Shown piece after piece: positions 1 to 21,729 of a stretch of DNA of 21,729 bases. The position numbers and the translations under genes are program-made. The stretch is from the IMG/VR virus record IMGVR_UViG_3300049727_000053, positions 1-21,729 of that record; one strand, given 5' to 3'. A model generated the notes under the pieces. It ran no database searches, was not told where the DNA came from, and was given only the letters and a program-made list of their open reading frames with translations. The first letter of the stretch is position 1; each line of letters opens with the position of its first letter. This stretch comes from a virus.

Positions 1-1284
1 GGCGGCGCTGCCGGCACCCCTGATGGTGGTGTAGGCGGTGGCCCGCAAGCAAATGGTACGCAACCTGGAGGTGGCGGCGGGAGTTCAAATTCCGGCACGA
101 TCGCCAGTGGCGCAGGTGCAGCCGGCCAGATCGCCTATACGTTCTATATCTCGACCGCGACATTTGTTCCCAATGGCGGCGACATTGCGAAACTCGCTGC
201 GCCGCGCCGACTTGACGAGCTCGCTGTTGCGCCGATCGGCGTTCCCAAGGGCGAGTTTCTGCCGAATTTTCTGTCGCAATGGCTCGGCCAGAGCGACATC
301 GCGCGTTTGCCGCCGATTCGGCCAGTTGATGACGTCCGCAATCCGCCGGCGCTCATCGTCGTGGCGGTCATCCCGAACTATGTGTCGCAATGGCTGGGCC
401 AAAGCGACATTTTGCGCCTGCCGCCGATCAAGCCGCTCGACGACGTGCGCAATCCGCCAGCGGTCGCCAAAGGCGAATTTCTCGCCAGTTTTGTCTCGCA
501 GTGGCTCGGCCAGACCAATATTGCCCGGTTGAATCCGCCGCGCCCGCTTGACAATTTGGAGGGCCCTGTCGGGGTCGCAAAAGGGGAGTTTCTATCCAGT
601 TTCGTTTCGCAATGGCTGGGCCAAAGCGATCCCCCGAAACTGCCGCCGCCTCGAGGCCTCGACAATCCTGCGGCTCCCCTTGGCTATCTCGGCGAGTTCA
701 TCCCGAGCCTCGTCTCGCAATGGCTCGGTCAGAGCGACGTCGCTCGGCTGCCTGCGCCGCGTCCGCTCGATAACCCGGCCGCGCCGCTTGGCTATGCCGG
801 CGAATTCACGCCGAGTTTCATTTCGCAATGGGACGTCGGCGGCGACGTATTTCTGCCGCGCCGCCTGCTCAATTGGGATTCGGCCGTCGCGCTTGCGCGG
901 TTCATAGTCCCGCCGCCTCCGCCGCCCCCGGTGTTTAGTGGAGTTCTTTCGTATCTGCTGCAATTTCGTTCGCTGTTTGAGGCCGTGAACGATCCCGTCA
1001 TGCAACAGTATAGCAAAGTCGCCGGTCAGATTGGCGTGCCGATCGGCATGAATTTCAATGTTCTCGCGTATGTATCTGGTCAGATTTTGACGGGTGGATA
1101 CTTGATCCTGATAACGGTGCAGGGTCTAGCTGACCAAGCGCTGCTAAATCATCCGAATTTGGTGCTGGCGACGGTCCGTCCGGTGACGTCCACGAAACAG
1201 ACCATCATCACGACGCGGCTGCCATTTTCGGTCTCGCAATATCAATTCAACATTCAGGGCGCCGGTCCCGTTCCGCTTGGTTGA
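1..1284 (+). CDS. Repeat-containing protein (WLGQSD repeats), 5' end outside window
   Basis: The frame is open from the first base to a TGA at 1282-1284, so this is the C-terminal 427 residues of a longer protein. It begins with a Gly/Ser-rich linker (about residues 1-43). Six copies of a 36-37 residue unit follow, each ending in SQWLGQSD or a variant (the sixth is SQWDVGGD), then a seven-proline stretch near residue 306 and a roughly 115-residue tail with hydrophobic and Gly-rich parts. I do not recognise the family. The gene ends one base before the terminase ATG, so it is probably co-transcribed with the packaging genes. A phage appendage or other structural role is a guess from position only. 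Base composition is somewhat less GC-rich than the neighbours, with codons such as CTA and ATA. The reading frame is secure; the function is unknown. Confidence 0.75.
   Translation, partial: GGAAGTPDGGVGGGPQANGTQPGGGGGSSNSGTIASGAGAAGQIAYTFYISTATFVPNGGDIAKLAAPRRLDELAVAPIGVPKGEFLPNFLSQWLGQSDIARLPPIRPVDDVRNPPALIVVAVIPNYVSQWLGQSDILRLPPIKPLDDVRNPPAVAKGEFLASFVSQWLGQTNIARLNPPRPLDNLEGPVGVAKGEFLSSFVSQWLGQSDPPKLPPPRGLDNPAAPLGYLGEFIPSLVSQWLGQSDVARLPAPRPLDNPAAPLGYAGEFTPSFISQWDVGGDVFLPRRLLNWDSAVALARFIVPPPPPPPVFSGVLSYLLQFRSLFEAVNDPVMQQYSKVAGQIGVPIGMNFNVLAYVSGQILTGGYLILITVQGLADQALLNHPNLVLATVRPVTSTKQTIITTRLPFSVSQYQFNIQGAGPVPLG
181..831 (+). repeat. Six in-frame tandem repeats of about 108-111 bp
   Basis: The SQW codons start at 274, 385, 496, 607, 715 and 823, giving spacings of 111, 111, 111, 108 and 108 bases (37, 37, 37, 36 and 36 residues). 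A unit reads roughly: KGEF, a hydrophobic stretch, SQWLGQSD, a few residues, then LPPPRPLDNP. Unit 2 has lost the KGEF part and the last unit diverges after SQW. Synonymous positions differ between copies, so the repeat is old and kept at protein level rather than a fresh DNA duplication. Confidence 0.85.
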
Positions 1285-5664: not shown

Positions 5665-6633
5665 ATGACCATTGAGGCACTGAGGAAATATCTGCGCGTC
5701 GCGTTCGACGGGGCCAATGACGGCGGCGCTGGCGGCCTGGCGGGCGCGATCGAACCCGCCGCGGGCGATCCTGCTGCGGGCGATCCCGGCGCTGGCGATG
5801 CGGGCGATCCCGCGGCTGGGGACCCGCCCGGCGGCGATCCCGGCGCTGGCGATCCGGCCGCGGGCGCCGGCGCGCCGGCGAGGAAACAGCCAAGCCCGAT
5901 CATCGCCGAGCTGGCGCAGCAGCGCGCGCGCCGTCGCGAGGCCGAACAGCGCAACAGCGAACTTGAGGCGCGCGCGGTCAGGGCCGAGCGCGAAGCCGCC
6001 GACGCCAGGGCGATCGCCGAGCGGCTGGCGAAGGGACAGGGGGGCGGCGCCGGCGCGACGACGACCACCGCCAGACAGCCGGCCGAGCCGACGAACGATG
6101 AGGCGGCGGTCAATCAGCGCGCCCAGATGATCATCTTCCGCCGCGACGTCGACCAGATGCGGGCACGCGCCTTCTCTGCCTTCGGCGAGGCCGATTTCAA
6201 CCAGTCGATCGCCTCGCTGGCGGCGCTCGGCGCCGACACCGTGAATTTCGTTCAAGACGTGATGGACGTCGACCAGGACAACGCGCACGTCCTTTTCCAT
6301 GAGCTTGCGCAGGACGAAGCGCGCACGCTGCGTCTCGTCAACATGACCCCCACCCAGAGGATTGCGGAGCTCACCCGAATGTCGATTGCGCAGCAGAACA
6401 AAGGCAAAGGCGGCGACGCCGGAGACGACAAGGGCGGCGACAAGGGCGACGCCGGCAACGGCGCTGCTCCCGCGCCGAAGCCTGGCGCTGGCATCAGCCG
6501 CGCCCCGCGTCCGGCTCCGGCGGTCACGCCGTCGGGTGGCGGCAAAGACCTTCCGCGTTTCTCCGACAAGAAATCCGACGCCGAGTTCAACAAGGATTTC
6601 GACGATTGGGGCAAGCGCCGCTCGCGTCGCTGA
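5665..6633 (+). CDS. Scaffolding-like protein (head assembly)
   Basis: This 322-residue protein lies directly between the portal block and the coat gene, the slot of P22 scaffold gp8. It has a short N-terminal helix and a low-complexity stretch at about 32-69 built from AAGDP/GAGDP units. A charged coiled-coil (about 78-124) rich in Arg, Glu and Ala comes next, then a mostly helical middle. A Gly/Lys/Asp linker leads to a strongly basic C-terminus ending KRRSRR. A helical body with a basic C-terminal coat-binding end is the known plan of P22-type scaffolds. GAGG at 5656-5659 gives a good ribosome site for the ATG. No protease motif is seen. The assignment rests on position and architecture, not on sequence identity I can verify. 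Confidence 0.72.
   Translation: MTIEALRKYLRVAFDGANDGGAGGLAGAIEPAAGDPAAGDPGAGDAGDPAAGDPPGGDPGAGDPAAGAGAPARKQPSPIIAELAQQRARRREAEQRNSELEARAVRAEREAADARAIAERLAKGQGGGAGATTTTARQPAEPTNDEAAVNQRAQMIIFRRDVDQMRARAFSAFGEADFNQSIASLAALGADTVNFVQDVMDVDQDNAHVLFHELAQDEARTLRLVNMTPTQRIAELTRMSIAQQNKGKGGDAGDDKGGDKGDAGNGAAPAPKPGAGISRAPRPAPAVTPSGGGKDLPRFSDKKSDAEFNKDFDDWGKRRSRR
5760..5871 (+). repeat. GDP-type low-complexity repeat inside the scaffold-like gene
   Basis: Short imperfect units coding for A-A-G-D-P or G-A-G-D-P recur about eight times (residues about 32-69). At DNA level the motif is gcgggcgatcc/ggcgctggcgat, so it is prone to slippage and length variation. It probably encodes a flexible linker. Confidence 0.75.
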
Positions 6634-6895
6634 TTTCGCTTTGAGGGTAAGCCGTAGCGGGATCGGCTCCGCAGCACCGGCCGCGCCGGGACACTGAGAG
6701 TAAGCGGAAATCTCTCGCCGCAGCGACCGGAGCTTATCCGGGTTCTCCCGCATCGGCTCGCCTCGGGATCGAGCTTCACCGCAGCGAAGGGCTGCACCCC
6801 CTCAACGCGCCTCGCGCGCATCCCGAGAAAGGCAGGCGCTCGTTTTCGCCCGACGTCCATCGTCGGGGGAGACATTGGCCTGATCCGGCACAGTC
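6634..6895 (+). promoter_or_regulatory. Hairpin-rich untranslated leader before the coat gene
   Basis: This is the longest gene-free stretch before the coat gene, and no convincing ORF fills it on either strand. Several perfect hairpins can be drawn. CCGGA/TCCGG pairs at 6727-6741. CTCGGGAT (6762-6769) pairs with ATCCCGAG (6820-6827) and encloses two small stems, GCAGC/GCTGC (6781-6795) and CGCGC/GCGCG (6806-6818). CCCGACG/CGTCGGG (6849-6867) has a five-base loop close to the coat start. None is followed by a T run, so these do not look like rho-independent terminators. A structured 5' leader controlling or stabilising coat mRNA is an inference. No clear -35/-10 pair was found. Confidence 0.4.
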
Positions 6896-8158
6896 ATGGC
6901 TAATAACCTCCTCACCCCGTCGATGATCACGCGGTTTTCGATCCGCATGTTTCTGAATACCAATTATTTAATCCAAAATATTTCAAGGCAGTTCGAAGAC
7001 CAGTTCGGCGAGGCCGGCGCTAAGATTGGCGCTCAGCTTCGCATCCGCTATCCGAACCAATACACCGTGACCGATGGTCCCGGAATTTCGCTCCAGGATA
7101 CGCTCGAACAGCAATTCCTCCTCACCGTCGCCACGCAGCGCCACGTCGACGTCGCCTTCACCAGCGCCGAGACCACGCTCGATGTCGACGATTACATGGA
7201 GCGAATCGTTCTGCCGCGCGTGAACGCGCTCGCCGCCAACGTCGCCGTGCAGATCATGGCGAACACGGCGCCGTTCATCCGCAACATCACGGCCAACGTC
7301 GACGGGGCGAACAACATTCTGCCCGTGACCGACACGCCGTTCGCGCTCGCCCGCGCGGTGCTCGAGGAAAACTCGGCGCCGAATTTCGGCGAAATGGGTA
7401 TGCGCAAGGTCGTCCTCGCGCCGCGTTCCGACTCGCGCGTGCAGTTGGCGTTGCGCGGCCTGTTGAACCCGGTCGAGAGCATCAGTCGGCAATATAACTC
7501 CGGCATGATGTACGAGGCCCTGCAATTCCGCTGGTTCGAGGATCAGTCGGTCGTCTCGCACACCACCGGATCGTGCACGTCGGCGACAGTCAACGGCGCG
7601 AACCAGACCGGCAACGTCATCACCATCAGCGCCCTGGTCGGCACGATCAATCAGGGCGATGTGTTCACGATGGCGGGCGTCAATGCGGTCAACCGCGCGA
7701 ACTTCCAGTCGCTCGGCACCTTGGCGCAGTTCGTGGCGGTCCAGGCGGCGGCGGCGGGCGCGACCTCGCTCACCATCTATCCGCCGATCATTCCGCCGGC
7801 GAATCCGAACGTTCCCTATGCGGGCCTGCCCTACACCCCGCAGCAGTATCAGACCGTCACGGCGTCGCCCGCCAACAACGCGACGATCACGCCGTTCGCC
7901 AACGCCTCTGTCACCTATCGCGAGAACATCGCTTACGTGCCGGACGCGATCACGATGGTTGTCGCCCCGCTGTGGATTCCGCCCAACGAAAAGGGCGTCA
8001 TCGCCGCCGCGCGCCACGAATACGATGATCTGTCGATGCGGAGTTTGGTCACGTATGAGCCTACTACGGATCAGCCCATAGATAGACTTGATATACTCTT
8101 TGGGTCCGGAGTCCCTAGACCAGAGTGGGGGGTGCAAGTTGCCGATTCTACTCCGTAA
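6896..8158 (+). CDS. Major capsid (coat) protein, P22 gp5-like
   Basis: This 420-residue protein is close in length to P22 coat (430) and lies after the scaffold-like gene. The start MANNLLTPSMITRFSIRMF, a DVAFTSAETTLDVDDYMERI region near 100 and the C-terminal SMRSLVTYEPTTDQPIDRLD with RPEWGVQVAD fit the P22 coat-like HK97-fold family. A middle insertion at about 225-330, rich in Thr, Asn, Val and Pro, is in the place of the P22 I-domain. About the last 35 codons (from about 8053) change abruptly in style: ATA, AGA, CTT, CCT, ACT and TCT replace the G/C-ending codons used upstream, while the protein still ends as expected for the family. A second, shorter AT-rich patch lies at about 6951-6992. 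The gene appears complete and functional. Confidence 0.9.
   Translation: MANNLLTPSMITRFSIRMFLNTNYLIQNISRQFEDQFGEAGAKIGAQLRIRYPNQYTVTDGPGISLQDTLEQQFLLTVATQRHVDVAFTSAETTLDVDDYMERIVLPRVNALAANVAVQIMANTAPFIRNITANVDGANNILPVTDTPFALARAVLEENSAPNFGEMGMRKVVLAPRSDSRVQLALRGLLNPVESISRQYNSGMMYEALQFRWFEDQSVVSHTTGSCTSATVNGANQTGNVITISALVGTINQGDVFTMAGVNAVNRANFQSLGTLAQFVAVQAAAAGATSLTIYPPIIPPANPNVPYAGLPYTPQQYQTVTASPANNATITPFANASVTYRENIAYVPDAITMVVAPLWIPPNEKGVIAAARHEYDDLSMRSLVTYEPTTDQPIDRLDILFGSGVPRPEWGVQVADSTP
8053..8158 (+). other. Recoded AT-richer 3' end of the coat gene
   Basis: The last 35 codons contain ATA twice, AGA twice, plus CTT, CCT, CCA, ACT and TCT, unlike the preceding 1.1 kb of the same gene. The encoded tail is still sensible coat sequence. 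The change begins next to TGGTCAC (8046-8052), and the same 7-mer recurs at 9041-9047, two bases after the HNH stop. This looks like a mosaic junction associated with the HNH insertion. Confidence 0.55.
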
Positions 8159-8274: not shown

Positions 8275-9039
8275 ATGGCTACTGAGATAATAGAACGCGC
8301 CGCCGCGCGCGCCAGTGGTCTCACCCGATATTTTACCGGCAAACCGTGCAAGCACGGTCACGTCGCTGAGCGCGTCGCCTCGAATGGTCGCTGCATCGTG
8401 TGTCTGTACGATGCAGAAAAGCGCTACATCGCGGCTCATCCAGAGAAAATTCGCGAAAAACGGCGTGATTATGAGCGCAATGCCGGTCCGGAGCGCAGGG
8501 CGGCGCATAAGGATGCCGACAAGCGTTGGCGGGATGCCAATGCAGACAAGAATGCTCTCCGCAAGAAACTTTGGGACGTTGCGAACCCAGATCGCCGACG
8601 CAAGCACGGAAAGAAATGGCGCGACGCCAATCCCGAGAAAATCCGCGTCAAAAACAAGCGCTACAAGGCGGAGAACGCGGAGAGACTGGCGCCGATCGCC
8701 CTTGAGCGCACGCGGCAATGGGAAAAGGACAACCCCGAGAAGGCGGCGGAGAACCATCGCGTCGTGCGCCGACGTCGACGCGCTCGCATTGCCGGCATCG
8801 AAGGCGACCACACTCGATCCGAAACTGACGCGCTTTTGAGGGCGCAGCGCTTCATCTGCGCTGAGCCGACATGCGGCGCTGACATCCACAAGCGTCGGCA
8901 TTTGGATCATATCCATCCTATCGCGCGAGGCGGCTCGAACGGCATCGAAAATCTGCAATGGCTTTGCCCGAGCTGCAATCGGCGCAAGGGCGCGCGCGAT
9001 CCCGCGGAATGGGCGCAAATCAACGGCCGGCTGCTCTAG
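8275..9039 (+). CDS. HNH endonuclease, homing type
   Basis: This 254-residue DNA-cutting enzyme probably acts as a free-standing homing endonuclease that spreads its own gene. The N-terminus has a zinc-binding-like module with C25, H27, H29, C40 and C43 (YFTGKPCKHGH, then NGRCIVC). The middle (about 45-160) is very basic and made of repeating WRDANP/KKxW-type units, a plausible DNA-contacting spacer. The C-terminal HNH nuclease spans about 195-245: zinc cysteines C195, C200, C231 and C234, the HLDHIHP motif (D211, H212) and N226/N235. GAGGA at 8265-8269 gives a good ribosome site. It interrupts the P22-like order directly after the coat gene, with its own promoter-like sequence upstream. All catalytic residues are present. 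No group I intron core is evident, and coat does not look split. Confidence 0.88.
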   Translation: MATEIIERAAARASGLTRYFTGKPCKHGHVAERVASNGRCIVCLYDAEKRYIAAHPEKIREKRRDYERNAGPERRAAHKDADKRWRDANADKNALRKKLWDVANPDRRRKHGKKWRDANPEKIRVKNKRYKAENAERLAPIALERTRQWEKDNPEKAAENHRVVRRRRRARIAGIEGDHTRSETDALLRAQRFICAEPTCGADIHKRRHLDHIHPIARGGSNGIENLQWLCPSCNRRKGARDPAEWAQINGRLL

Positions 9040-12336: not shown

Positions 12337-12542
12337 TCCGCCGCGAGCTGTTCGGCTGGTTCGACCCGAAGGAACAGGCTTTCCGGCTGAGCAAGATTCC
12401 GCCGGATTGCCCGATCCGCCCCTGCCTCACCTTCGAAACGAAGGAGGAGACGCGGGAATTCATCCAGCGCAAGCGGGCTACCGTCCATTGGTGGCCGCCC
12501 CTGCCTGATCGCGTGGCGGAGTGGTTCGATGCTGCGCTCTGA
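12333..12542 (+). CDS. Tiny protein of unknown function, 69 aa
   Basis: The GTG at 12333 overlaps the previous stop as GTGA, which suggests coupled translation; a separate ribosome site is weak. The 69-residue product is charged and Trp-rich, with RRELFGWFDPKEQAFRLSKI and a C-terminal VHWWPPLPDRVAEWFDAAL. It has no membrane segment. Its last 14 bases overlap the start of the gp10-like gene and contain that gene's GGAG. The family is not recognised. Small ORFs just before gp10-like genes are common in this phage type. Confidence 0.65.
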   Translation: MIRRELFGWFDPKEQAFRLSKIPPDCPIRPCLTFETKEETREFIQRKRATVHWWPPLPDRVAEWFDAAL

Positions 12543-14277
12543 CGGCCTGATCCCACTCAACGGCGGCGCGTATCAAGGCCGAGACGCGATAAGTAATTGG
12601 CAGATTTGTGAAAACCTGTTCCCGGAGCTCAACCCGCAGGAAGTCGATCCCGACGTCGCCGTGACGCACTATCCGCGCGAGGGCTTGCGGCCGCTCTCGG
12701 CGCCGCCGGCGGTCGGCCTCGGCCGGGGCGTCTTCACCGCTTCCAACGGCCAGCTCTACGCCGTGGTCGGGGCGAACGTCTATTACATCGACACTGCTTG
12801 GACGTGGCACCAAATCGGCCAGATCGCCGCGGGCAACACGCCGACGTCGCTCGCCGACAACGGGACGAATGCGGTCCTGGTCGACGGCAGTCCAAACGGC
12901 TATCAGATTTCGCTCGCCGACGTGGCGGGGACCAAAGGCGTCATCGTTTCGCTCGGGGCGATCACGCCGGGGGCAGGCGGCGGCGCTGATGCCGTCTATG
13001 CCGCCGTCCCTCTCACCGGAGGATCAGGAGCGGGCGCGACCGCAAACATCACGGTCAAGGGCGGCGTGGTGACGGAAGTCGATATTGTCGGCGGAGGAGA
13101 CGCCTACATCATCGGCGACGTGCTCTCGGCCGCGTCAGCGAGCATCGATAATGTCGTCGGGTTTTCGATTCCGGTCGCTTCGGTCACGGCGTTCACGCAA
13201 ATCGTCGACCCCACCGGGTCATTCGTCGGCTCGAGGCGGGCTGATTTCTCCGACACCTTCCTCGCCTTCGCCAATCCCGGCACGAACGAATGGATCGTCT
13301 CGCTGTCGAACCAGGTGGCGTTCAATGCGTTCGTCAATGCGGCGAAGGACTCGACGCCAGACCCGATTCAGACGTTTTCGTTCAATCTGCGGCAGATGTG
13401 GCTGCTCGGCACGCAGCGATCGGAAATCTGGTTTCTCGCCGGCTCGACGCCGTTCCCCTATCAGGAATGGCCGAACCTCTTCGTCCCCTACGGTTGCGTC
13501 GCCGCCTATTCGCTGGTGCGCGCCGGGGCCTCGCTGTTCTGGCTGTCGCGCAATCCGGAAGGCGAGGGGATCGCCGTCAAGACGGTCGGCGAGCAGATCG
13601 AGCCGATTTCCACCCGCGCGCTCGAATACGAGTGGGGAAACTACGCCCGCATCGACGACGTGATCGGGGGAACCTATCAGCGCGGCGGCCACACCTTCAT
13701 CATCTTCCATTTCCCGACCGCCGATCGGACCTGGGCTTACGACACCGCGACGAAGCAATGGCATCGCCGCACCTGGCTTGACGGGCAGGGCGTCTCGCAT
13801 CGCGAAAAAGTGGCCTATTACGCCAAGGTTGGCGCCGATGGCGGTTATGCGCCGACAAACGTCGCGCAGGACTGGCAGACCGGCCAAATCTACGCACTCG
13901 ACCCCAAGTTCTATACCGACAACGGGCAGTCGATCGTCTGCCGGCGGTCCTTCCCGCACATCATGAAGGACATGAAGGAGATCACCCACGTCGCGTTCGT
14001 GGCGGATTTCTCGACCGGCAACATCGTCGGGGTCAACGAAAAGCCGATCGCCGGGTCGCCGGCGCCGGCGCTGTTCATGCGCTACAGCAACGACGGCGGC
14101 AACAAGTGGTCGAACTACCGCCGCAAGGGGCGCGTCAGTTCGGGCAACTACCGCTCGATGATGCGCTGGCGCGGCCTGGGCATGGCGCGCGATCGCGTCT
14201 ACGAATTGTTGTGGAGCTATCCCGGTGAATCCGCGCTCCAAGGGGCCTATGTCGATCCGATCGAGCATGGCGCATGA
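12529..14277 (+). CDS. Tail hub / packaged DNA stabilisation protein, P22 gp10-like
   Basis: This 582-residue protein fits the large gp10-type hub that follows gp4 under the portal and anchors needle and fibres. It starts with LRSDGLIPLNGGAYQGRD and ENLFPELNPQEVD, typical of gp10-like proteins. A beta-propeller-like body follows, with repeated Gly/aromatic strands such as NGQLYAVVGANVYYID, RSEIWFLAGSTPFPYQEWPN and FHFPTADRTWAYD. A Gly-rich module at about 162-219 interrupts the body and is about 65% identical to a segment of the gene at the window's right end. GGAG at 12518-12521 supports the ATG. P22 gp10 is 472 residues, so the extra length is partly this module. The gene ends in ATGA with the next. 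Confidence 0.82.
   Translation: MLRSDGLIPLNGGAYQGRDAISNWQICENLFPELNPQEVDPDVAVTHYPREGLRPLSAPPAVGLGRGVFTASNGQLYAVVGANVYYIDTAWTWHQIGQIAAGNTPTSLADNGTNAVLVDGSPNGYQISLADVAGTKGVIVSLGAITPGAGGGADAVYAAVPLTGGSGAGATANITVKGGVVTEVDIVGGGDAYIIGDVLSAASASIDNVVGFSIPVASVTAFTQIVDPTGSFVGSRRADFSDTFLAFANPGTNEWIVSLSNQVAFNAFVNAAKDSTPDPIQTFSFNLRQMWLLGTQRSEIWFLAGSTPFPYQEWPNLFVPYGCVAAYSLVRAGASLFWLSRNPEGEGIAVKTVGEQIEPISTRALEYEWGNYARIDDVIGGTYQRGGHTFIIFHFPTADRTWAYDTATKQWHRRTWLDGQGVSHREKVAYYAKVGADGGYAPTNVAQDWQTGQIYALDPKFYTDNGQSIVCRRSFPHIMKDMKEITHVAFVADFSTGNIVGVNEKPIAGSPAPALFMRYSNDGGNKWSNYRRKGRVSSGNYRSMMRWRGLGMARDRVYELLWSYPGESALQGAYVDPIEHGA
13012..13185 (+). repeat. Gly/Thr-rich module, copy A (inside the gp10-like gene)
   Basis: These 58 codons, from LTGGSGAGATANITV to VVGFSIPVASV, align without gaps to codons 21474-21647. 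By eye 38 of 58 residues are identical. Similar Gly-rich strand modules are known from phage tail-fibre and appendage proteins. Confidence 0.85.
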
Positions 14278-15104
14278 CGGCGCCGGTCGAGAGCGTTCCG
14301 AGCTCCTCGCCGCTAGTCGGGCCCGACGGACGCTCCGTCAATACACCGTGGTACTCGTTTTTCGTCAGCATCTTTAACGCCCTCGGCGGGGCAGGGGGTA
14401 GCGCCAGCGCGCTACTCGACACCTTGTCGAGCATCCCCGGCTCGATGCTGCTGCGCGGCGTCGCGTCGTGGGCGGGGCTTCTGCCGGGCGCGCACAACGC
14501 CGTGCTGCGCATGGGCGTCACCTATCCCGAGTGGGACACGCTCGACGGCAATAGCTTCGCGCCGCAGGCTCAGAACACGCTCTTTGCCGGTCCTGCGGCG
14601 GGCGCCAATGCGGCGCCGAGCTTCCGCAAGCTCGCCTCGGCCGATCTCGCCAACGTCGCGGGGCAGATTCCGGGAACCGGCACCAACGACAACGCGGCGG
14701 CCGGCGACGTCGGCGAATATGTCGCGAGCCAAGTGATCTCCGGCGCGGCGGTGGCGCTCAGCAGCGGCATTGCAGCCGACGTCACGCACATCACGCTCTC
14801 GGCCGGCGATTGGGACGTCTGGGGGTCGATCTCGACCGCGCCGGCGGGGAGCACGACGCAGAGCGATATTCGCGGCTGGACGAACACGATCACCGCCGCC
14901 GATCCGCTGCCGCCCAACAGCGGCGCTTATGCCGAGACGCAGATGGCGATTGGCGCGGGGCTCGCTCAAACCTTGCCGATCGGGATGCAGCGGATCTCGG
15001 TCGCCAGCGGCGTCAACCAGAACGTCTATCTCAGCGCGGAAGTGACGTTCGCGACATCGACGCTCGGCGCCTATGGCTTCATCGGCGCGCGGCGCGTCCG
15101 GTAA
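14274..15104 (+). CDS. Tail fibre or needle-like protein (gp26 position), 276 aa
   Basis: The start overlaps the hub gene as ATGA. The N-terminus (VGPDGRSVNTPWYSFFVSIF) resembles the short anchor segment of phage appendage proteins encoded next to gp10-like hubs. A middle Gly/Ala/Ser-rich part contains SFRKLASADLANVAGQIPG, a pattern common in tail-fibre stalks. The C-terminal half (about 145-276) is beta-rich with alternating hydrophobic residues and looks like a trimerising head domain. P22 has its tail needle gp26 in this slot, but long coiled-coils typical of gp26 are not evident, so a fibre is also likely. No enzymatic motif is seen. Confidence 0.65.
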   Translation: MTAPVESVPSSSPLVGPDGRSVNTPWYSFFVSIFNALGGAGGSASALLDTLSSIPGSMLLRGVASWAGLLPGAHNAVLRMGVTYPEWDTLDGNSFAPQAQNTLFAGPAAGANAAPSFRKLASADLANVAGQIPGTGTNDNAAAGDVGEYVASQVISGAAVALSSGIAADVTHITLSAGDWDVWGSISTAPAGSTTQSDIRGWTNTITAADPLPPNSGAYAETQMAIGAGLAQTLPIGMQRISVASGVNQNVYLSAEVTFATSTLGAYGFIGARRVR

Positions 15105-15106
15105 TC

Positions 15107-16186
15107 ATGATCAGACCCTTTTTCGTCCTGGCGCTGCCGCGCAGCCGAACCGCTTGGCTGTCGCGCTTCCTCACCTATCGCGAATGGATTTGCGGCCATG
15201 AGGAATTGCGCCATGTGCGCAGCCTCGAGGATGCTAAATCCTGGCTGTCGCAGCCCTTCACCGGCAGCGCCGAGACGGCCGGGGCTCCATTCTGGCGATT
15301 GCTTCCCCGCTTCGCGCCGGAGGCCCGCGTCATCGTCGTCAGGCGCCCCGTCGACCAGGTGGTTGCGAGCCTGTTGCGGCTCGACACGATGGGGGCAGGG
15401 GCCTTCGATCCCGTCCGCCTCGAGCGCGCGATGCGAAGGCTCGACGCCAAGCTTGACCAGGTGGCGGCGCGCTGGCCACGCGCGATCGAGGTCGGTTTCG
15501 CCGAATTGGAGCGCGAGGACGTCTGCGCGCGGGTTTTCGAGCATTGCCTCCCCTATCCCCATGATCCGAAGTGGTGGGGCCTGCTCGCCAACGTGAACTT
15601 GCAAGCCTCGATGGCGGGGCTGATGCGCTACATGACGGCCTTCGGGCCGCAGATGCAGCGCGTCTCGCTGCAAGCCAAGCAAGCGATGCTGTCCGATCTC
15701 GCGATCAGGCCGAGCGCGCCGATCGAGGGCGTCGAATTCTCCGTCGAGCCGTTCGAGACCTTCTATCGCGACTGCCAGGAATTGTTCGCCGAGCATCTAT
15801 GCGAGGTCGGCGAGTCGCCGCTCGCCTACAGCGAGAAAAACCTCGAGCTGATGAACTTTCTCGACAAGGGCGGCGGGATGCAAATCCTCGTCGCCCGCTG
15901 CAACGGGAAACCGTTCGGCTACCTGATGAGCGAACTTTCGCCCTCGCGGGAACGACGCGATCTCGTCTCGGCGGTGCACACCGGATTTTTCGCCTCAAAA
16001 GCGATTCCTGGCCTCGGCCTCAAAATGCAGCGCGAGGCCTTGCGCGTTCTGAAATCGCGCGGCGTCGGCGAGGTCTGGTTCCGCGCCGGGCCGCGCGGCG
16101 ACGGGCCGCGGATGGGCACGCTCTATCGCCGCCTCGGCGCCGCCGATGACGGCGCGCTGTACCGCCTGAATTTGCAAGGGGCTTAA
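15107..16186 (+). CDS. Sulfotransferase-like / GNAT acetyltransferase fusion
   Basis: The ATG at 15107 overlaps no gene and lies two bases after the previous stop. Residues about 1-200 look like a PAPS-dependent sulfotransferase: a 5'-phosphosulfate loop LPRSRTAWLSRF at 10-21 (usual form PRSGTTWL) and a 3'-phosphate motif VIVVRRPVDQVVASLL at 75-90 (R79, D83, S88). Residues about 245-359 look like a GNAT acetyltransferase, with ILVARCNGKPFGYLMSEL, a GFFASKAIPGLGLKMQREAL acetyl-CoA loop variant and a LYRRLGA end. The GNAT loop is not the canonical QxxGxG/A. No inactivating change is certain. The gene occupies the P22 gp14 slot. Substrates are unknown; host acceptor, virion or small-molecule modification are all possible. 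Both domain calls are from motifs read by eye. Confidence 0.7.
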   Translation: MIRPFFVLALPRSRTAWLSRFLTYREWICGHEELRHVRSLEDAKSWLSQPFTGSAETAGAPFWRLLPRFAPEARVIVVRRPVDQVVASLLRLDTMGAGAFDPVRLERAMRRLDAKLDQVAARWPRAIEVGFAELEREDVCARVFEHCLPYPHDPKWWGLLANVNLQASMAGLMRYMTAFGPQMQRVSLQAKQAMLSDLAIRPSAPIEGVEFSVEPFETFYRDCQELFAEHLCEVGESPLAYSEKNLELMNFLDKGGGMQILVARCNGKPFGYLMSELSPSRERRDLVSAVHTGFFASKAIPGLGLKMQREALRVLKSRGVGEVWFRAGPRGDGPRMGTLYRRLGAADDGALYRLNLQGA

Positions 16187-16187
16187 G

Positions 16188-16904
16188 ATGGGCATTGCAG
16201 CGGCGGCAGCTATTGGAGGCGTCGCCACCCTCGCCGGATCAGTCATGCAATCGAGCGCGTCGCAACAGGCGGCGCAGGAGCAATTGCAGGGCACGCAAGA
16301 AGCCATCAAGACGCAACAGGGCATGTTCAACACGGCACAAAGCGCCTTGTCGCCCTATTATACCGCGCCGGCTCAGTCGCAGGCGACGCTGCAATCTCTC
16401 CTCAATCCGAGCACCGCGCAATCGACGCTCCAGAACCTCCCAGGTTTCCAGTTCGCTTCGCAATGGGGCGATCTGGCGACGACCAACCAACTGGCGGCCG
16501 AAGGACTGGGCGGTTCGTCCGGTCCGCTGGCCAAGGGCCTCTCCGACTATAATAACGGCCTCGCGCAGACCTACTACACGAATTATGCCAATACATTGCA
16601 GCAATCCGTGAATTCGGGCCTTGGTGGCGCTTCTGCACTCGCCGGCAATGCGACCAATACCGGTCAGGCGATCGGGCAGACGCAGCAGGCCGGCGCCAAC
16701 GCGCTGGCTGCGGGCACGCTCGGCAGCGCCAACGCGCTCGCGGGCGGCTTGAGCAGCGCCGGCGGCTCGCTGTCGACCGCGCTGATGCTCAATGCGTTGA
16801 ACGGGAGTGGGGGCGTAGGTTCGTATGCGGGTCTATCTGGTTCCGGTCTCCAAGGTGCAATCAGCTCCATGTCACCCACGCTCAACGGCAATATGCTCTA
16901 TTGA
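16188..16904 (+). CDS. DNA ejection protein, P22 gp7-like
   Basis: This 238-residue protein is rich in Ala, Gly, Gln, Ser and Asn. It opens with a hydrophobic Gly/Ala helix (AAAAAIGGVATLAGSV), followed by a Gln-rich helix (SASQQAAQEQLQGTQEAIK). The middle carries LPGFQFASQWGDLATTNQLA, and the end is low-complexity Ala/Gly. This is the usual make-up of gp7-type proteins that sit in the head and are ejected with the DNA to build a trans-envelope channel. It is first of the ejection block, the gp7 slot, and starts one base after the previous TAA. No catalytic motif is expected. Confidence 0.72.
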   Translation: MGIAAAAAIGGVATLAGSVMQSSASQQAAQEQLQGTQEAIKTQQGMFNTAQSALSPYYTAPAQSQATLQSLLNPSTAQSTLQNLPGFQFASQWGDLATTNQLAAEGLGGSSGPLAKGLSDYNNGLAQTYYTNYANTLQQSVNSGLGGASALAGNATNTGQAIGQTQQAGANALAAGTLGSANALAGGLSSAGGSLSTALMLNALNGSGGVGSYAGLSGSGLQGAISSMSPTLNGNMLY

Positions 16905-16915
16905 GGGTCTGATCA

Positions 16916-17494
16916 ATGCCGAGCGCGCTCTCCGCCAACCTGATGCCGCCGCCGGCGCCCAACCCCGACCCGCAGGGCGGCGGGGGTGGGGGCCCGCTGA
17001 GCGGTCCCGCGCTCGCCGGTATGGGCGCGCAGCCGGGCGCTGGCGCGCCTGGCGCGGGGCCTGGGGCCGCGCCGACGCCGGGCGGCGTGATGCCCCCGCC
17101 GCCGGGCCGCGGACAGACTGTGGCCGCGCTGCGCCATTTTTCGATGATCGAAAACGAGGTCAAGAAGCTCCTCGCCGATCCCGAATGCGGCAAATCCGAT
17201 CTCCGTTCCGAAGTGATCGACGGCATGACGGGCCTGGTCTCGCAGGGGATCACCACCGCGGCCGATGCGGTCAGGGAATTGAGCAATTTCCCCGACAAGC
17301 CGTTCGATCAGAAACAGTGGCTCGAGGCGCACCTGTCGCAAGCGGTCCAGGCCTCGAACGCCGTGCTGCAACATCACCGCATGGCCTTCGCCGGGCAGGA
17401 TATGCCCGAGAATGACGTCTACGATCCCGACAACCACACCGGGACGATGGACGCTCTGACCAAGCAATATCAGGGGGCGCAACGTGCCGGATAA
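16916..17494 (+). CDS. Ejection-block protein of unknown function, 192 aa
   Basis: The ATG at 16916 follows GAGGG (about 16902-16906). The first 65 residues are a Pro/Gly/Ala-rich, probably disordered linker. Residues about 68-170 are helical, with MIENEVKKLLADPECGKSDL, a VSQGITTAADAVRELSNFP stretch and PFDQKQWLEAH. It lies between the gp7-like and gp20-like genes and overlaps the latter by 11 bases. In related phages a similar Pro-rich then helical protein occupies this slot, but no role is known to me. An internal head or ejection accessory protein is the likely class. Confidence 0.7.
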   Translation: MPSALSANLMPPPAPNPDPQGGGGGGPLSGPALAGMGAQPGAGAPGAGPGAAPTPGGVMPPPPGRGQTVAALRHFSMIENEVKKLLADPECGKSDLRSEVIDGMTGLVSQGITTAADAVRELSNFPDKPFDQKQWLEAHLSQAVQASNAVLQHHRMAFAGQDMPENDVYDPDNHTGTMDALTKQYQGAQRAG

Positions 17495-18806
17495 CCCGAT
17501 CGCGTCCCTCTACCCCCAGCCACAGCCAATCGGCGGCGGTCCTCTCAGCAATCCGTCGGGCGCTTTGGGCCTGATGACGCAATTGCAGCAGCTCAAGCAA
17601 TTGCAGTCGCAGCAGGCGGTCGGATCGGCGTTGCAGGGTGCGGTCGGACCGGATGGGACGTTCGATTCCGCCAAGGCCTTATCGGGGATCGCCGCCAATC
17701 CGAACGCGGCCTATGGCGCTGGGACCGGCATCATGTCGGCGCTCGAAAGCCGCAACATTCAGATCGCAGGCGATACCAACGCCTTCAATCTCGCGCGCGG
17801 GCAGAACGCCTCATTGCAGGATGCCGCAGGCTCGCTTGCCAACGCAGCCAATCCGACCGATGCGATTAATATCCTGACCGGCATTGCGCGACGCACGAAT
17901 GTCCCGACGCCGGTCCTGACGAGCCTCATTTCCTCGATCCCGCAAGACCCGAAGGCTTTTCGCCAATGGGCCGGGCAATATGCGAGCGTCGGGCAAGGAC
18001 CGGGAGCAGCGAACGCGCGCTCCGCAGTCGTCAACCCGGATGGCAGCACGTCGCTCGTGCCGCAAGCGGCCCTCAATACGGCGCCGTCCGGTCTCGGGAA
18101 TGCCGCCGGTCCCGCTGGCAGCATCGCCCCCATGACGGCGGCGAGCCAAGCCGCCTACGTGAAGGCGCAGGGCGATTCCGCGGCCATCAGCGCGTCGCTT
18201 CGGCCGGCCAATCAGGCGCTTGGGCTTCTGCCCAATCTTTCGGCGTCCGATTTCGGTCCGGGATCGAACGAATATGCGCAGGCCAAATCATTGCTCATCA
18301 GCGCGGGTCTCTTGCCGCCGGCCGCGACCGATGTCCCGATCCGGCAGGAGTTCAACAAATATCTCCATCAGATGGTCGGCGGGATTCCGGCGTCCGGTCG
18401 CTCCGACGAAGCGCAGGCTCTCGCGACGGCATCGAGCCCAAACACCGATCTTACCCAGCCAGCCAATGCGGAACTACTCAAAAACATCATCGCCATGCAA
18501 AAGCAGAACGCATCGGTGTCTCAGGCCTATGATGCGACCAATCCCGGCGACAAATCGAAGGCCGGCTTCAATCAGTTCGCCTCGACCTATTTTCAGAATA
18601 CCGATTTGCGCGCATTCCGCTTCGATACAATGACCCCGCAGGAGCGCCGGACCACGCTCGACGGTCTTGGCAAGCCCAATTCGCCCGCGTATCAGAAGTT
18701 CATCAATTCGCTGCGCATCGCCCGCTCAGCCGGCGCCGTGACGCCGGACGCGACCGCACCTGCGGCGCAACCGACACCCGCCGGGGGCGCTCCCAATGGA
18801 CCCTGA
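17484..18806 (+). CDS. DNA ejection protein, P22 gp20-like position
   Basis: GTG at 17484 overlaps the preceding gene by 11 bases, and the stop overlaps the next gene by 11 bases. The 440-residue product is Gln/Ala/Asn-rich. It has an N-terminal helix heavy in Gln (LMTQLQQLKQLQSQQAVGSA) and a middle of alternating helices and Gly/Pro loops. A C-terminal helical part carries FDTMTPQERRTTLDGLGK. The composition and length are close to the gp20-type ejection proteins, and the gene is second of the three main ejection genes. Sequence identity to P22 gp20 is not obvious, so the name is by position and composition. No enzymatic motif is visible. Confidence 0.65.
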   Translation: MPDNPIASLYPQPQPIGGGPLSNPSGALGLMTQLQQLKQLQSQQAVGSALQGAVGPDGTFDSAKALSGIAANPNAAYGAGTGIMSALESRNIQIAGDTNAFNLARGQNASLQDAAGSLANAANPTDAINILTGIARRTNVPTPVLTSLISSIPQDPKAFRQWAGQYASVGQGPGAANARSAVVNPDGSTSLVPQAALNTAPSGLGNAAGPAGSIAPMTAASQAAYVKAQGDSAAISASLRPANQALGLLPNLSASDFGPGSNEYAQAKSLLISAGLLPPAATDVPIRQEFNKYLHQMVGGIPASGRSDEAQALATASSPNTDLTQPANAELLKNIIAMQKQNASVSQAYDATNPGDKSKAGFNQFASTYFQNTDLRAFRFDTMTPQERRTTLDGLGKPNSPAYQKFINSLRIARSAGAVTPDATAPAAQPTPAGGAPNGP

Positions 18807-21150
18807 GAACGATCCGCTCGCGCTCTCGCCAAACGATCGGGATTTGATGATCCGGACCGTCATTGGCGAGGCCGGCAATGATCCGAGCGCGCAGGGCGTT
18901 GCGGCGGTCATCGCCAATCGGATGTGGCAAACCGGCCAGTCGGCCGGTCAGATCGTCCTCGCGCCAGGGCAGTTTGAGGCATGGTCGAAGCCCGCGCAAC
19001 TGATGAAATATTCGCCGACCGATCCGGCATATCGGGCAGCAGCGCAGATCGTCGATGCGGCCGTTTCCAGCAAGACACCCGATCCGACCGGCGGCGCGAC
19101 GCAGTTCTACGCGCCCGACGCCCAGAAGGCGCTAGGGCGCCAGCCCCCGGCCTGGGACGACGGCACCGGCCAGCGCATCGGATCCCAACTGTTCTTTGGC
19201 GGCCAGCAAAGCGACCCACTCGCCGGCTTCGAAATCGCGCCCGGGGCCAAGAGCGCGGCCGCGCCCGCCGATGATCCCCTGGCGGGGTTCGAGATCGCGC
19301 CCTCGAAGGCGGCGAAAGCGGCCTCGAGCGCGCCTGCCGCGGCGGCGCCGGCCGCCTCGAGCGCGCCTGACGATCCGCTGGCGGGCTTCAACGTCGCGCC
19401 GGCGGCTCCCGCAGCCGCCGCAGCGGCGCCCGATGTTCCCGCCGATCGTCCGCCGAACCTTCCCCATGCCTTCACGCCAACGGAGGCGTTGCGGGCGGCG
19501 ATGACTGCCAAGCCGACGACTGTCGATCCCTACGACCCGATTCTGACGCAGCTCAAAAGTGCGCTCGGCGGGGCCGGGAGTTATCTCGCCGGCCAGGTCT
19601 CAGGCCTCCCCAGCGCCATCACCTCGGATTTCTCCGCCGGCAGGAGCGCGCTGGCGAGCGGTCTGGATCAAATCTGGAAAGGCAATTGGGACACCTCGGT
19701 CAAGGGCGCGCCGCCAGCTCCGCCGCAGCTCGTCGACCGCGGCGAACGCGATCTGTTCGGCAATCCTGTTCTCCACAGCACCGCCGAATTCCCAAACAAT
19801 CTCGCGGTCAATCCCGGCGGGGCGCTGACGGCGCTTGGCGGGGCGGCGCAAATGCTGACGTCGCCGCTCACTGGCGCGACGCGGCAGTTCGTCGAGGATC
19901 CCGTCACGCAGGCGTCCGGCAGTCCCGACATCGGCGCGCGCGCCGGCCTGGTGGCGAGCTCGCTCGCCGGCCCGCTCGCCGGTCGCGTGGTCGGGGGTGC
20001 TGGTAGCGCGCTGGCGGATTCCCTCATCGGCAAGATCGACCCGGCGCGCGCTGCGCTCGCCGCCACCGCGCGCGACAAGTTCGGCATTCCCATCGGCACC
20101 GGCCAGCTTTCCGAAAACCCGCTCGTCAACGTGCTCAACTCGACCGTCGACAGCCTGCCGGGCTCGGGCGGCGCGGCGGCGAAAACGACGATTCAGACCG
20201 CCTGGGATCGCGGCGTCGCCTCGACCATCGGCGAAACTGCCGATCGCGTCACGCCAGAGGTGCTGGCGCGGGCGCGAACCCGCATCGGCGCCGTCTTCGA
20301 CGACGTGGCGAACAAAACGAACATCAATGTCGATCCGCAATTGCAGAACCAATTGCAAACGACGATGCTCGACGCCTCGCGCGGCCTGACCGACAGCGAA
20401 TTCCGCGTCGTCAGCAACGCTTTCGACGATCTCATGGGCAAGATCGGCCCGGATGGAACGATCGCGGGCAAGGATTACCAGAACCTCGTCAAGTCGAACA
20501 CGTTCTTCAACAAGACGTTGAACAACGGCAATTCGAATATCTCGAACGCCGTCGAGGAAATGAAAGACGCGCTCGATGACGCAATGGGCCGTTCGGCGCC
20601 GCCCGAGGTCCAGGCGGCATATGCGACGGCGAAAGATCAATGGCGCAATCTGAAAACGATCGATCCGCTGGTCGCCAAATCACAGACAGGCGCGATTTCG
20701 CCGCCGCTGCTCGCCAATGCGATCAATTCGAGCCGCTATTCGAGGAATGCGCTGGCCTATCCCGGCGGCGCTGGCGACTTGGGCGATCTCGCGCGCATCG
20801 GACAGGCGTTCCTCAAGGAACCGGCCAATTCAAACACGGCGCAACGCGCTCTGAGTTTCGGCGCTTTGGCGGATGCCGGAACGGCGCTTGCCGCGCTACC
20901 GTTCTCGCTCACCGCCGGTCGGGCGGCCGGAAGCGTTCTGCATAGCAACTGGCTCGCGAATGACCTGATCAATCGTAGCCTTCAATTGAGGTCCCCTGGG
21001 CCGCTCCAACGCGCCGCCGGTGTCCTTGGAACCCAGACGCCGCAATGGCCGTCCTTGAGCGCCGGAAGCGCTCTCAGCAACGTTCTGGCGGGAAGCGGTA
21101 ATAAAGCGATCAACTCTGCGCTCTCGCCGGTTGGCGCGCAAAATCCATAG
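18796..21150 (+). CDS. Ejection protein with N-terminal SleB-type cell-wall hydrolase
   Basis: This 784-residue protein begins with a SleB/Hydrolase_2-like domain (about 12-136). It has the catalytic-type Glu at E25 in RTVIGEAGNDP, ANRM at 40-43, GGATQFYAPDA at 99-109 and IGSQLFFG at the end. The usual His of the GATH motif is Gln (Q103). Three DPLAGF(E/N)(I/V)AP repeats in an Ala/Pro linker (about 140-205) follow. The rest (about 225-784) is a large helical region with Gly-rich hydrophobic segments (AARAGLVASSLAGPLAGRVV), as in ejection proteins of the gp16 slot. The likely role is local peptidoglycan cutting during DNA injection. P22 gp16 has no known SleB domain; T7 gp16 is a useful analogy with a transglycosylase. 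It is the last gene of the block. Confidence 0.8.
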   Translation: MDPENDPLALSPNDRDLMIRTVIGEAGNDPSAQGVAAVIANRMWQTGQSAGQIVLAPGQFEAWSKPAQLMKYSPTDPAYRAAAQIVDAAVSSKTPDPTGGATQFYAPDAQKALGRQPPAWDDGTGQRIGSQLFFGGQQSDPLAGFEIAPGAKSAAAPADDPLAGFEIAPSKAAKAASSAPAAAAPAASSAPDDPLAGFNVAPAAPAAAAAAPDVPADRPPNLPHAFTPTEALRAAMTAKPTTVDPYDPILTQLKSALGGAGSYLAGQVSGLPSAITSDFSAGRSALASGLDQIWKGNWDTSVKGAPPAPPQLVDRGERDLFGNPVLHSTAEFPNNLAVNPGGALTALGGAAQMLTSPLTGATRQFVEDPVTQASGSPDIGARAGLVASSLAGPLAGRVVGGAGSALADSLIGKIDPARAALAATARDKFGIPIGTGQLSENPLVNVLNSTVDSLPGSGGAAAKTTIQTAWDRGVASTIGETADRVTPEVLARARTRIGAVFDDVANKTNINVDPQLQNQLQTTMLDASRGLTDSEFRVVSNAFDDLMGKIGPDGTIAGKDYQNLVKSNTFFNKTLNNGNSNISNAVEEMKDALDDAMGRSAPPEVQAAYATAKDQWRNLKTIDPLVAKSQTGAISPPLLANAINSSRYSRNALAYPGGAGDLGDLARIGQAFLKEPANSNTAQRALSFGALADAGTALAALPFSLTAGRAAGSVLHSNWLANDLINRSLQLRSPGPLQRAAGVLGTQTPQWPSLSAGSALSNVLAGSGNKAINSALSPVGAQNP
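19213..19398 (+). repeat. Three DPLAGF linker repeats
   Basis: Three in-frame copies of D-P-L-A-G-F-(E/N)-(I/V)-A-P start at about 19213, 19270 and 19369, separated by Ala/Pro/Ser-rich spacers of 9 to 23 residues. They join the hydrolase domain to the helical ejection region and resemble repeated short docking or linker motifs. Their role is unknown. Confidence 0.8.
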
Positions 21151-21257: not shown

Positions 21258-21729
21258 ATGCTCACCAGACTGCGCGCCCTTGGCGTAGCGGCCACGCTTG
21301 CGCTCGCCCTCTTTGGCGTGCTCGCGCCGCGCGCCGCCTATTCCCAGGCTACTCAGCTTCCGAACGGGGAGCAATGTTTCCAGGCCACGACAGGGGTCAA
21401 CGGCTTCGTTGGGACGCTCGGAATCATCACCGGCGGCACGGGCGGGACCGCGGGAACCTATGGCGGCGTCGCGCTGACGGGGGGCTCCGGCACCGGGGCC
21501 ACCGCCAACATAACCGTTTCGGGCGGGGCGGTCACGGCCGTTTCCATCCTCAATCCGGGGATAAATTATCTCGTTTCCGACACCTTGTCGGCCGCCTCGG
21601 GCAACATCGGCAACGTCACCGGCTTCTCGGTTCCGGTCGCCTCGATCGCGATCAATTCGGCGGTCGCGGGCGGCTCGGTCGGCATGTATCTGCCCGGCAC
21701 CTTGACGCCGGCGCAGACCTGGCAGAACG
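21258..21729 (+). CDS. Secreted appendage-like protein, 3' end outside window
   Basis: The ATG at 21258 has AAGGA six bases upstream. The frame is open to the window end, giving the first 157 residues. The N-terminus (LTRLRALGVAATLALALFG, then VLAPRAAYSQA) is a Sec-type signal peptide with cleavage near residue 27-31. A Gly/Thr-rich beta region follows, including codons 21474-21647, which match the module in the gp10-like hub at about 65%. This points to a tail appendage, or a protein that meets the same partner. In P22 the next virion gene after gp16 is not far from the tailspike, which fits an appendage. The C-terminal part that would decide the function is missing. Confidence 0.7.
   Translation, partial: MLTRLRALGVAATLALALFGVLAPRAAYSQATQLPNGEQCFQATTGVNGFVGTLGIITGGTGGTAGTYGGVALTGGSGTGATANITVSGGAVTAVSILNPGINYLVSDTLSAASGNIGNVTGFSVPVASIAINSAVAGGSVGMYLPGTLTPAQTWQN
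21474..21647 (+). repeat. Gly/Thr-rich module, copy B (in the right-end gene)
   Basis: These 58 codons, from LTGGSGTGATANITV to VTGFSVPVASI, are the counterpart of 13012-13185. Identity is about 38 of 58 residues with no gaps, while DNA differs at many synonymous sites. The duplication is therefore not recent. Confidence 0.85.

Follow-up and report, generated by a model that had tools for sequence, protein, structure and literature searches.

What does a predicted sulfotransferase-acetyltransferase fusion protein do among the virion genes of a P22-like operon? The fusion is encoded on a 21.7-kb viral contig, called the window here. Its gene (15107–16186, forward strand) starts with ATG at 15107, stops with TAA at 16184–16186 and encodes 359 aa, with boundaries identical to those in the preliminary description of this locus. 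The gene order of the window is large terminase, portal, coat, Hc3, tail-fibre-like, fusion, gp7-like and gp16-like. The operon is called P22-like because of its portal, coat, Hc3, gp7-like and ejection-protein matches. Profile searches identified a P22-type portal (PF16510, E 2e-127) and a P22 coat protein (PF11651, E 1e-25), and the head closure Hc3 gene lies between the coat and tail-fibre-like genes. The tail-fibre-like late gene (14274–15104, forward strand; phrog_11393) is at the position of P22 gene 26 and ends 2 nt before the fusion gene. Directly downstream of the fusion, after a gap of 1 nt, is a gp7-like DNA-ejection gene (16188–16904, forward strand; phrog_598, E 1.1e-19). The gene at the P22 gene 20 position (17484–18806, forward strand) is named as a putative ejection protein gene by synteny with P22 only, and profile searches of the window proteins gave no matches for it. 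The gp16-like ejection gene (18796–21150, forward strand; phrog_26400, E 4.1e-49) encodes an N-terminal Hydrolase_2 cell-wall hydrolase domain (PF07486, E 1e-8). In P22, the corresponding slot is occupied by gene 14, in agreement with the gp14 slot that had been proposed for the fusion.

The N-terminal half (residues 1–200; 15107–15706, forward strand) is, by profile and predicted structure, a real sulfotransferase domain. It matches Sulfotransfer_3 (PF13469) at 30.9 bits, and the whole protein at 28.3 bits, a small margin above the Pfam cut-off of 27. The assignment does not rest chiefly on that margin. Among 71 diverse N-domains, with identity to the window protein down to 31%, 36 match Sulfotransfer_3 and 20 match Sulfotransfer_4 (E < 0.01). 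An AlphaFold2 model of residues 1–200 has a pLDDT of 95.7. PAPS sulfotransferases are the best structural matches in both Foldseek and VIA. The top five Foldseek matches in the PDB are all sulfotransferases and four are tyrosylprotein sulfotransferases (TPSTs), with E values of 3.7e-5 to tick TPST and 7.1e-5 to TPST1. VIA gave Z scores of 12.2 to an olefin-synthase sulfotransferase domain and 12.0–11.4 to TPST1, TPST2 and tick TPST, with 161–165 of the 200 residues aligned at an rmsd of 3.3–3.7. VIA matches no more than 1 Z unit apart were treated as tied; the TPSTs are tied with other sulfotransferases, so protein-tyrosine specificity is a lead only. A phmmer search of the PDB with the whole protein returned polyubiquitin and designed helix bundles, which were rejected as chance matches. 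One designed bundle recurred in profile searches and was set aside as repeated short helix matches.

PAPS sulfotransferases bind the 5′-phosphosulfate with a PRS loop and the 3′-phosphate with an Arg/Ser pair eight residues apart. The motifs LPRSRTAW (residues 10–17) and RRPVDQVVAS (residues 79–88) both fall within the N-domain. All 71 N-domains share only eight residues: P11, R12, R14, W17, L22, H31, R80 and S88. They include three residues of the putative 5′-phosphosulfate loop P11-R12-S13-R14 (15137–15148, forward strand; S13 in 69/71) and both ends of the putative 3′-phosphate-binding motif R80…S88 (15344–15370, forward strand). H31 and E32 (15197–15202, forward strand) are candidate catalytic residues from their conservation, since H31 is invariant and position 32 is E or D in 70 of the 71. 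The N-domain resembles Sulfotransfer_3 proteins and TPST1/TPST2 in its fold over ~160 residues, its PRS-type 5′ loop and its R-x7-S 3′ motif, and its first helix is likewise followed by a CG-x-E-like stretch. It differs from TPST1/TPST2 in being shorter (200 aa), in having PRSR instead of PRSG, in its invariant H31 and in the attached GNAT, and sequence identity is ~13%. A weak alignment places H31 near the CGEE stretch of the TPSTs. In TPST2, as given in the PDB, the PRS loop and the R-x7-S spacing are the same as in the N-domain; the PDB match agrees with the TPST2 query fragment at every residue but one. An hhalign comparison with a TPST2 fragment aligned the PRS…CG region without significance.

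The C-terminal half (residues 206–359; 15722–16183, forward strand) is clearly a GNAT domain, judged from homologues and predicted structure. Profile evidence from the window protein itself is weak, with phrog_1249 at E 0.12 and no GNAT match in a Pfam search of the C half. Homologues match Acetyltransf_1. The fusion of Azospirillum rugosum scores 20.8 bits against a cut-off of 20.7 and matches phrog_1249 at 1.5e-5, and a GNAT encoded as a separate gene (locus L059) scores 31.1 bits. The full-length model has a pLDDT of 88.9 and a pTM of 0.74. Residues 205–359 of this model align with solved GNATs at VIA Z scores up to 16.2 (3lod; 131 residues, rmsd 2.3). Conservation was counted over 47 fusions of <80% identity. 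The predicted pyrophosphate (acetyl-CoA) loop G302-L303-G304 (16010–16018, forward strand) has G302 at 0.98 and G304 at 1.00. In motif B, Y340-R-R-L-G344 (16124–16138, forward strand), R342 and G344 are present in 47/47 and Y340 in 39/47.

Profiles, folds, conservation and synteny support the original proposal that one protein in the slot of P22 gene 14 joins PAPS-binding-type motifs to a GNAT-like half, and both cofactor sites are kept in homologues, the PAPS motifs across the 71 N-domains and the GNAT G-x-G loop across the 47 fusions. Checked separately, residues 1–200 look like a sulfotransferase and the C half has a GNAT fold; the domain border lies closer to residue 206 than to 245, the start suggested for the second search region. 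A DNA-modification role like that of Mu Mom, offered as another hypothesis, gained no support. No Mom-named families appear in the Pfam, PHROGs and NCBIfam match lists for the fusion, where family names only were compared, and the relatives are ordinary GNATs. The nearest phage ones found are encoded beside internal virion proteins: by hhalign, the GNAT half matches Zobellviridae GNATs with a probability of 97.5 for Vibrio phage 1.209.O and 93 for VpV262. The Zobellviridae GNAT is a stand-alone protein encoded just before coiled-coil and internal virion protein genes. The Zobellviridae/Cobavirus GNATs (VpV262 ORFS, SIO1 pc40 and Vibrio phage 1.209.O gp22) share the fusion's kind of neighbourhood, but lack a sulfotransferase domain and belong to a different virion lineage.

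The fusion recurs across viral contigs. IMG/VR was scanned with a whole-protein profile (67 loci), for N-domain relatives (363 stretches, 80 kept) and for C-domain relatives (141, 80 kept). After removal of identical N-domains, there were 91 fused, 14 sulfotransferase-only and 2 split sequences, proportions that are biased toward fusion because the scans were seeded from the fusion. Besides viral contigs, two bacterial genomes hold fused sequences: a Beijerinckiaceae MAG, at 92% identity, and Azospirillum rugosum, at 53%. Both bacterial genomes carry APS kinase, so PAPS is likely available in such hosts. Of 385 genomes surveyed in the class to which A. rugosum belongs, the known carrier alone held the fusion gene, which is therefore rare in that class. 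No full-length fusion homologue was found by tblastn in 50,697 GenBank phage records. The fusion is a combination of known domain families that was not found reported in the literature searched or in the phage collection. For pairs with unsaturated synonymous sites, dN/dS is 0.09–0.22 in the N half and 0.02–0.14 in the C half, and both halves are under purifying selection. Chance is excluded by the 91 distinct fused homologues together with dN/dS values of 0.02–0.22 in both halves. The N-domain tree places most stand-alone versions outside the fused group. A minimum of two changes is needed on this tree, which therefore does not show that fusion happened just once. In L059 and L182 the two domains are adjacent separate genes, and in L059 the GNAT gene directly follows the stand-alone sulfotransferase gene. 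In another locus (L213, 5770–7028), the sulfotransferase half and the GNAT half are read in two frames, which meet close to the linker, owing to either a frameshift or an assembly error.

The place next to ejection genes is also recurrent. Enough downstream sequence was available for 84 distinct fusions, and in 66 of these a gp7-like gene starts no more than 120 nt past the stop. Most of the sulfotransferase-only relatives tested also precede gp7-like or other internal virion protein genes. Six are followed by a gp7-like gene (L057, L062, L063, L159, L160 and L161). Four others are followed by a phrog_418 internal virion protein gene (L165, L172, L198 and L203; after about position 6534), so the association with ejection genes reaches beyond the gp7-type module. 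The genes after three sulfotransferase-only copies (L167, L174 and L179) gave no profile matches. In L058, the sulfotransferase-only gene (6571–7230) is followed by a glycoside hydrolase gene (phrog_2913, E 3e-58), with no ejection gene there. More distant relatives belong to phrog_10855, the nearest PHROGs family to the fusion (E 1.5e-8), which is named ‘hydrolase’. Its proteins in Abidjanvirus and Sanovirus, annotated as hydrolase or sulfotransferase-like, have a homologous domain at 26–28% identity, but lack the GNAT half. They are encoded among early or metabolic genes away from virion genes, so an association with virions is not a general property of the sulfotransferase domain.

The best explanation, given a probability of about 0.4, is that the fusion is a two-domain group-transfer enzyme that modifies the downstream ejection proteins during virion assembly. 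The enzyme, whose cofactor sites look intact, is probably active. The N-terminal domain would bind PAPS and transfer sulfate, and the C-terminal GNAT domain would bind acetyl-CoA and transfer acetyl. The fusion would be made with the late (assembly) proteins. Its targets would be the gp7-, gp20- and gp16-like ejection proteins encoded directly downstream, and modification may help them to fold, to be packaged or, later, to cross the host envelope. The place of the fusion gene corresponds to that of gene 14 in P22 and to the one where other podoviruses encode GNATs next to internal virion proteins. Computation supports the identity of the domains and of the residues at the cofactor sites, the recurrence of the fusion and of its place by ejection genes, and purifying selection. 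That place could instead reflect co-inheritance. Counting against this reading are the P-loop kinases that also match the predicted N-domain fold at Z ~10, the distant Abidjanvirus and Sanovirus relatives outside virion genes, and P22 gp14 and T7 gp13, neither of which is detectably related in sequence to the GNAT half. Modification of a virion protein, one of several purposes first suggested, is now the most likely; the ejection proteins are its presumed substrates, and a role directed at the host stays as a rival. Sulfated virion proteins, if they exist, would add a new layer to phage assembly and DNA delivery. A wider claim, doubtful at present, is that short-tailed phages use a dedicated bifunctional enzyme to add sulfate, and acetyl, to the proteins that they inject. 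A phage ejection apparatus would then be modified post-translationally in a PAPS-dependent way, and gene 14-type slots in podoviruses would be positions for enzymes that modify ejection proteins.

A less probable reading is that the enzyme is active on host molecules made or met late in infection, whether glycans of the cell surface, lipids, a host protein or some small molecule. Many small molecules and glycans are substrates of Sulfotransfer_3 enzymes, and the N-domain fold also lies near those of sulfotransferases for carbohydrates and antibiotics (VIA Z ~10). The metabolic setting of the related sulfotransferase genes in other phages also suits host targets; of the function of phage sulfotransferases, PMC10580990 says only that it is unclear. 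The phage GNAT Rac, which acts on RNA polymerase, is a precedent. Rac of phiKMV-like phages is reported to inactivate host transcription via cleavage of the RNA polymerase alpha subunit (PMC7552054). However, the fusion gene lies in a late operon right before ejection genes across diverse contigs. An enzyme directed at host metabolism would be expected to move more freely, so this constant place counts against host targets.

More doubtful still is a role as a morphogenesis factor, in which the GNAT fold serves ejection proteins as assembly scaffold or chaperone, and the sulfotransferase domain is there for binding and not for catalysis. P22 gp14 and T7 gp13 may be GNAT-fold scaffolds or chaperones of this kind. 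P22 gp14 is annotated as a head morphogenesis factor, and Pfam describes T7 gp13 as a probable scaffold protein. A part in virion morphogenesis has been suggested for GNATs encoded next to internal virion proteins, and the Cobavirus GNAT has been proposed as the T7 gp13 counterpart (PMC6775973). A figure legend in the PhiGT1 paper (PMC10386132) describes IVPA as a homologue of P22 gene 14 and, at a greater distance, of T7 IVPA. P22 gp14 (DUF2824, PF11039) shares with the fusion the slot between the gp26-position gene and gp7, but it matches DUF2824 and not a GNAT profile. With shallow profiles, hhalign gave a probability of 0.6 for P22 gp14 against the GNAT half, and detected no relation of either P22 gp14 or T7 gp13 to it. 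DUF2824 is absent from the Pfam matches listed for the fusion protein at E up to 10. The fusion thus fills the gene 14 slot, and by sequence it does not group with the gp14 family. The cofactor sites are near-invariant across diverse members and would not be needed for a purely structural role, which argues against a non-enzymatic function in assembly. A fusion with two intact-looking cofactor sites that recurs in this slot could shed light on what P22 gp14 and other small proteins encoded near ejection genes do.

That the N-terminal domain is a P-loop nucleotide kinase or hydrolase is highly improbable: despite the ‘hydrolase’ name of phrog_10855 and the fold matches to shikimate and gluconate kinases in Foldseek and VIA (best kinase Z ~10.5), sulfotransferases come first in Pfam, Foldseek and VIA, the loop is PRSR with no GxxxxGK[ST] Walker A in the N-domain, and the Arg/Ser pair is invariant.

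Elsewhere in the window, upstream of the terminase gene, a proline-rich protein (1–1284, forward strand) contains ~6 copies of a unit like GEFLxSFVSQWLGQSDxxRLPPxRPLDN. An HNH-like ORF (8275–9039, forward strand) between the coat and tail genes has CxxC pairs and the sequence HLDHIHPIARGG...CPSCNRRKG. The Hc3-like protein (12529–14277, forward strand) and a fibre-like ORF at the window end (21258–21729, forward strand) have in common a ~60-aa module, LTGGSG-GATANITV-GG-VT ... LSAAS--I-NV-GFS-PVAS, as if it had been copied from a tail fibre into the head-closure protein.
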